Assembly (NCBI GenBank): GCA_009760855.2
Contig: WPIO01000002.1
Location: 8,348,501-8,412,500, forward strand
DNA: 64,000 nucleotides
Source: Cristatella mucedo
Taxonomy: Eukaryota > Bryozoa > Phylactolaemata > Cristatellidae
Reading direction: 5' to 3'
The position numbers were made by a program, and so were the translations under genes. Positions 24,690 to 63,551 of the stretch are shown here, piece after piece. Under the pieces are notes generated by a model. It worked only from the letters and a program-made list of their open reading frames with translations, was not told the origin of the DNA and did no database searches. How positions within the stretch are numbered: position 1 is the stretch's first letter; each line of letters starts with the position of its first letter.

Positions 24690-24732
24690 ATGGCCCGGCA
24701 TCCCGCTGTACTGTTGATCGTAATTGTCTTCG
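24690..24732 (+). CDS. KCP-like: KCP-like exon 1: signal peptide
   Basis: Encodes MARHPAVLLIVIVF plus one base (phase 1), with donor GTAAGG. Joined to 29813 the junction codon is Ala, giving a basic n-region, an 11-residue hydrophobic core and then TDYGAEAQ. The ATG is the first in frame after a stop at 24621 and has G at -3 and +4. The link to exon 2 across 5 kb is inferred from phase, signal-peptide character and promoter-like context. Confidence 0.6.

Positions 24733-63551: not shown

Follow-up and report, generated by a model that had tools for sequence, protein, structure and literature searches.

The window, the 64,000-base stretch of DNA that was analysed (C222:8348501-8412500 in a genome of 572,011,866 bases and 688 contigs), very probably contains the first part of a single plus-strand gene that runs from position 24690 to about 40 kb past the window and encodes a probably secreted protein of kielin/KCP architecture. 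The protein begins with a putative signal peptide and a coiled coil, continues with about 20 VWC units (the first of them a half-domain), and closes with single VWD, C8, and TIL domains in that order; the downstream VWD-C8-TIL end settles the kielin/KCP architecture. VWC is a cysteine-rich module, and modules of this type are known growth-factor binders.

Fifteen exons were rebuilt on the plus strand between 24690 and 63551 from six-frame cysteine motifs, scored splice sites, and reading of the sequence, with exon borders set by consensus and domain logic rather than by cDNA. Joined together, they form one open frame of 2401 coding bases and 800 aa, comprising 122 Cys and 0 stops. All 14 acceptors are AG, 14 of the 15 donors are GT with a single GC (exon 6), and the frame is kept across 14/14 junctions. 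An earlier sequence-only reading had described 15 exons without frame conflict, and the rebuild arrived at the same number and the same outer coordinates. Exons 6, 11, and 12, which that reading had regarded as hidden, are each overlapped by a longer frame, as are exons 1, 3, 4, and 13, giving a total of 7/15. The features of the window are listed below.

23501-25000 (+), CpG-/GC-rich stretch over exon 1; CpG o/e 1.10, 1.28, and 1.20 in three 500-base blocks, GC 0.56-0.61
24690-24732 (+), exon 1; start codon and core of the putative signal peptide, MARHPAVLLIVIVF; gcgATGg context; donor TCG/gtaagg; phase out 1
29813-29889 (+), exon 2; end of the putative signal peptide and start of the coiled coil, with a heptad pattern; phase 1 to 0
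30291-30446 (+), exon 3; coiled coil, CxC cysteines, and first part of the half-domain VWC1; phase 0-0
31329-31377 (+), exon 4; end of the half-domain VWC1; phase 0 to 1
34778-34978 (+), exon 5; VWC2; phase 1-1; 10 Cys
37347-37609 (+), exon 6; VWC3, then the beginning of VWC4; phase 1 to 0; donor GAG/gcaagt; under a longer frame
40172-40262 (+), exon 7; remainder of VWC4; phase 0 to 1
42425-42604 (+), exon 8; VWC5; phase 1-1; residues 295-351 are the top VWC stretch of the Pfam scan
42993-43184 (+), exon 9; VWC6; phase 1-1; 10 Cys
46831-47007 (+), exon 10; VWC7; phase 1-1; 10 Cys
52009-52191 (+), exon 11; VWC8; phase 1-1; 10 Cys; under a longer frame
52369-52464 (+), exon 12; first part of VWC9; phase 1-1; under a longer frame
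55094-55266 (+), exon 13; remainder of VWC9 and first part of VWC10; phase 1 to 0; the overlapping frame is longer by one residue
57975-58236 (+), exon 14; remainder of VWC10 and the whole of VWC11; phase 0 to 1
63294-63551 (+), exon 15; VWC12, then the beginning of VWC13; phase 1-1; donor ATG/gtaagt; the gene runs past the window

The GC donor of exon 6 (GAG/gcaagt, 37604-37615) belongs to a known minor class of splice site and would be missed by GT-only gene finders. An alternative GT donor for this exon (intron from 37605) gave, by reading, a stop at the exon 7 join and was dropped for the GC donor. The CpG-/GC-rich stretch at 23501-25000 is a probable promoter region. The window-wide CpG o/e is 0.73, and the blocks of 22001-23500 also have high CpG o/e values (1.01-1.55) with lower GC (0.35-0.53).

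The Pfam VWC profile matched the joined 800-aa protein with E = 1.3e-81 in 11 stretches, which is the outcome of the HMM check that the sequence-only reading had proposed. With matches in simple-repeat tracts removed beforehand, the VWC half-motif had 11 occurrences on the plus strand of 24690-63551, whose minus strand had none; there were likewise none on the two strands of 1-24689. Taken with the Pfam value, these counts indicate that the VWC motif is not a product of chance. TILa and Pacifastin_I also matched within the array; both were under the cut-off and were read as cysteine-pattern cross-matches. A PDB search with the window half of the protein returned three sequences, the collagen II VWC twice and chordin weakly, which is consistent with the assignment and not discriminating.

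With unit borders set by hand, VWC2-VWC12 have exactly 10 Cys each, the half-domain VWC1 after the coiled coil has 8 Cys without the CCxxC end, and the border of the window truncates VWC13. The earlier count of at least 13 VWC domains thus stands if the half-domain VWC1 and the cut VWC13 are included, whereas the complete units number only 11 (VWC2-VWC12). Across the whole gene there are 20 VWC units, comprising 17 complete units with exactly 10 Cys, one half (VWC1), and two incomplete units (VWC13 and VWC14) beside the unread part. Six domains (VWC2, 5, 6, 7, 8, and 18) each occupy their own phase 1-1 exon, and VWC3, 11, 12, 15, and 20 lie uncut within longer exons. A phase-0 intron just past the CxC motif splits VWC1, 4, 10, 16, 17, and 19, and a phase-1 intron near the post-CxC place splits VWC9 and VWC13. 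Because this intron placement is regular, it fits growth of the array through exon duplication.

The downstream half was sought in 100 kb read from 500 bases before the window end, 7,500 bases of which are N. Twelve further exons at C222:8417592-8452569 (69092-104069 in window numbering) continue in frame to a stop codon, with 11/11 GT donors and 12/12 AG acceptors. The 767-aa product matched the Pfam families VWD (8.8e-34), VWC (4.6e-31, 6 stretches), C8 (6.1e-20), and TIL (2e-7), each above its own cut-off, in the order of more VWC units followed by VWD, C8, TIL, and the stop. The sequence-only reading had suggested a search beyond position 64000 for VWD and TIL and had counted a downstream end without VWD against its assignment; both domains follow the VWC array there, with C8 between them. 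A genome-wide VWD search independently found the downstream VWD (C222:8446893-8447198), where the six-frame match crosses an exon edge and contains two stops. In a PDB search, the downstream half returned 32 sequences, the strongest being VWF, mucins, and IgGFc-binding protein, to which VWD-C8-TIL is common, and this result does not single out KCP.

The gene runs approximately 40.5 kb past 63551 and spans approximately 79.4 kb as a whole; its readable part comprises 27 exons and 1567 residues. The end of exon 15, in phase 1, interrupts VWC13 halfway. Exon 16 opens partway through VWC14; its best acceptor puts it in phase 2, and one two bases further along would put it in phase 1. Unread sequence between the two exons holds at least one more, so both VWC13 and VWC14 are incomplete. 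We infer that exons 1-15 and 16-27 are one gene because they share a strand, because the domain logic continues from one to the other, and because no second VWC array was seen among the candidate exons that a cysteine filter listed across the 100 kb; of all parts of the model, this join is the least secure. TIL gave a modest match. Exon 22 has a weak acceptor: 8441941 was kept despite a poor pyrimidine tract, as the alternative at 8441971 would leave VWC19 without its final Cys. Exon 25 was picked among 15 listed candidates as the one that completes the C8 domain.

That unrelated frames were chained by chance, or that the locus is a decayed pseudogene, is scarcely conceivable. The sequence-only reading had been made by eye, and no support for such an origin was found; against it are the 27 readable exons, the lack of an in-frame stop before the end, and Pfam scores above the cut-off. 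The exon chains on both halves, together with the strand control of the half-motif, rule it out.

At the N-terminus, MARHPAVLLIVIVFATDYGAEAQ resembles a signal peptide as judged by eye. The heptads after it follow a 4-3 pattern in which 8/9 core positions are I/L/V and the ninth is Asn, and they lead directly into CDCRMTPC. The heptad score was equalled by 3/20000 shuffles, with the stretch and the core letters picked after seeing the sequence. A structure model of exon 3 alone predicted a helix at 4-17 and then strands, with a best mean pLDDT of 69.5 (48.6-62.8 in the other four of five models), and supports only a helix followed by strands. NELL trimers form via a coiled-coil region with cysteines, as described in part of PMC7083938. 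By analogy with NELL, which has a coiled coil and cysteines before its VWC domains, oligomerisation through the coiled coil and its adjacent cysteines would be a reasonable inference rather than a result.

In KCP, TIL stands at the C-terminus and C8 lies between VWD and TIL, and the coiled coil may be present in vertebrate KCP as well; here, too, C8 lies between VWD and a C-terminal TIL, after which the frame stops. The order after the VWC array (VWD, C8, TIL, and stop) bears out the preference of the sequence-only reading for KCP over NELL or CRIM1. Its further argument from a missing LamG/TSPN domain agrees with the scans, in which none was found, but such an absence alone does not separate KCP from NELL. 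The argument is weaker than it was put, since a TSPN-like domain has reportedly been described at the N-terminus of Xenopus Kielin. The Pfam scans of the 800 and 767 aa contained no match to the EGF, LamG/TSPN, CHRD, IGFBP, or antistasin families at E up to 0.001. In intron 1 and its border (24733 to ~29650), 70 of the 82 plus-strand frames of at least 20 aa were scanned, with 5 low-complexity frames removed beforehand, and at E up to 0.01 none of those scanned matched a Pfam family. KCP itself, according to part of PMC10315795, is large and secreted, carries 18 CR repeats and a VWD, and enhances BMP signalling. The product of the window gene, itself probably secreted, resembles it in having a long tandem array of chordin-type CR/VWC units followed by VWD (18 CR there, approximately 20 VWC here), and differs by about two more VWC units and the N-terminal half-VWC. 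A further difference is that the genome is of invertebrate type, as judged by eye from the mitochondrial COX1. This gene is located on C688 (21,008 bases), and the readings AGR = Ser and ATA = Met fit its conserved positions best when compared by eye with known sequences, which suggests the invertebrate mitochondrial code (code 5). Further COX1 matches on the larger contigs C166, C83, C549, and C299 are probably nuclear copies.

Searches of the whole genome returned at least 17 VWC matches (on C222, C354, C661, C94, and C177) and at least 21 VWD matches (on C221, C222, C199, C332, C550, C266, C430, and C33). The locus at C222:2261260-2269718 (-), on the contig of the window at a distance of approximately 6.1 Mb, has five VWC ends, VWD, and C8 pieces and is CV2-like, its plan being that of CV2/BMPER as laid out in part of PMC6270503. 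The locus at C221:4621822-4630552 (-), with VWC exons, VWD, and C8, is also CV2-like; both were named by eye. At C661:1.685-1.694 Mb, several VWC units, an antistasin-like stretch, and a transmembrane-like segment were seen by eye, a combination that we take to be a CRIM1-like plan. Another multi-VWC locus (C354:3214070-3236536, -) accounts for 5 of the at least 17 VWC matches. An exon-by-exon genome search for CHRD (PF07452) gave 0 matches and 0 candidates, with no animal among the controls that matched; the genome may lack chordin, or introns may split the CHRD domains too finely for such a search.

One alternative as to family is that the gene is a paralogue of crossveinless-2/BMPER that enlarged its VWC array on its own, and so resembles KCP without being a KCP orthologue. 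A VWC array followed by VWD, C8, and TIL is the order of CV2 as well, according to a section of PMC6270503, and the two CV2-like loci on C222 and C221 place such genes in the same genome. In a comparison with 15 loci, the VWD end of the window gene shared 33% identity with C221 over 307 aa and 31% with the C222 paralogue over 249 aa. These identities lend the paralogue reading some support, and by this comparison the window gene is a gene apart from these loci. CV2 has 5 VWC domains, the first of which adjoins the signal peptide (PMC6270503, in part), whereas the coiled coil comes first here and approximately 20 VWC units follow, which rules out CV2 with its 5 VWC. An expanded paralogue is unlikely in view of the coiled coil and long array and of CV2-like genes already present elsewhere in the genome.

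Kielin/KCP architecture was also weighed against the remaining multi-VWC families, and membership of NELL or CRIM1 is highly improbable. NELL1/NELL2 resemble the window gene in that a cysteine-bearing coiled coil precedes the VWC domains, and their order of LamG, coiled coil, VWC, and EGF domains is given in part of PMC7083938; by contrast, the window gene has no LamG or EGF match and ends in VWD-C8-TIL. NELL is ruled out on these grounds unless exons 1-15 and 16-27 are different genes. CRIM1 has an IGFBP-like start, an array of several VWC domains, and a transmembrane segment. The likeness to it lies in the several VWC domains, and the difference in the lack of any IGFBP or antistasin match in either half; with the same proviso on the two halves, CRIM1 is ruled out by the missing IGFBP, the VWD-C8-TIL end with its stop, and the separate CRIM1-like gene on C661. 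Chordin, in which CHRD domains lie between VWC domains, was rejected as CHRD is absent from the Pfam scans of both halves. VWF, the gel-forming mucins, and IgGFc-binding protein share the VWD-C8-TIL unit and repeat it several times, whereas one stretch each of VWD, C8, and TIL stands here behind a long VWC array; the gene was therefore not placed with VWF or the gel-forming mucins.

The architecture suggests that the KCP-type product is likely a secreted, probably oligomeric, multivalent extracellular modulator of BMP/TGF-beta signals. The coiled coil and adjacent cysteines would assemble oligomers, as in NELL trimers, a subset of the VWC modules would bind BMP/TGF-beta ligands, the VWD-C8-TIL end would bind a partner or the matrix, and the protein would thereby present or sequester ligand. 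Parts of PMC6270503 state that VWC1 of CV2 uses subdomain 1 and an N-terminal clip to bind BMP-2 and that certain VWC domains do not bind BMP at all. That BMP binding is not common to all VWC domains leaves some room for a structural protein of the extracellular or biomineral matrix that has KCP architecture without acting on BMP signalling, and a sea-star skeletal proteome lists five kielin/chordin-like proteins in a part of PMC5460417. This matrix role is a possibility of lesser weight: the known KCP enhances BMP signalling (PMC10315795, in part), and inspection of the product by eye showed neither a repetitive nor an acidic stretch of the mineral-matrix kind. A far more speculative proposal, and a rather improbable one, is that the KCP-type protein is a covalent trimer as in NELL, with approximately 60 VWC per particle, and that together with the CV2-like paralogues it would supply the main chordin-type extracellular BMP carriers in an animal without detectable CHRD.

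Several other elements were observed in the window. Upstream of the gene, two diverged copies of a helical-looking peptide (LGKTLVGHATNL.SGVKDSL.QLSDKLSG) lie approximately 9 kb apart on the plus strand (4703-4783 and 13729-13809) and are possibly a small duplicated gene. Two similar repeat copies with a tRNA-like part were found by eye in introns (~36976-37147 and 33791-33967) and are a probable SINE. LINE-like reverse-transcriptase fragments, also seen by eye, occur in introns, for example near 40550-41500. An Rfam search over the window returned no match.

The locus provides a nearly complete kielin/KCP architecture, from a known gene family, in an animal with an invertebrate-type mitochondrial code. 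Its exon chain is useful for mending gene models that skip short hidden exons. A chordin-like molecule of Trichoplax groups with vertebrate Kielin proteins according to part of a review (PMC11226491), so an old origin is no surprise. A KCP-type gene and separate CV2-like and CRIM1-like genes in one genome are useful for dating the KCP/CV2 split.
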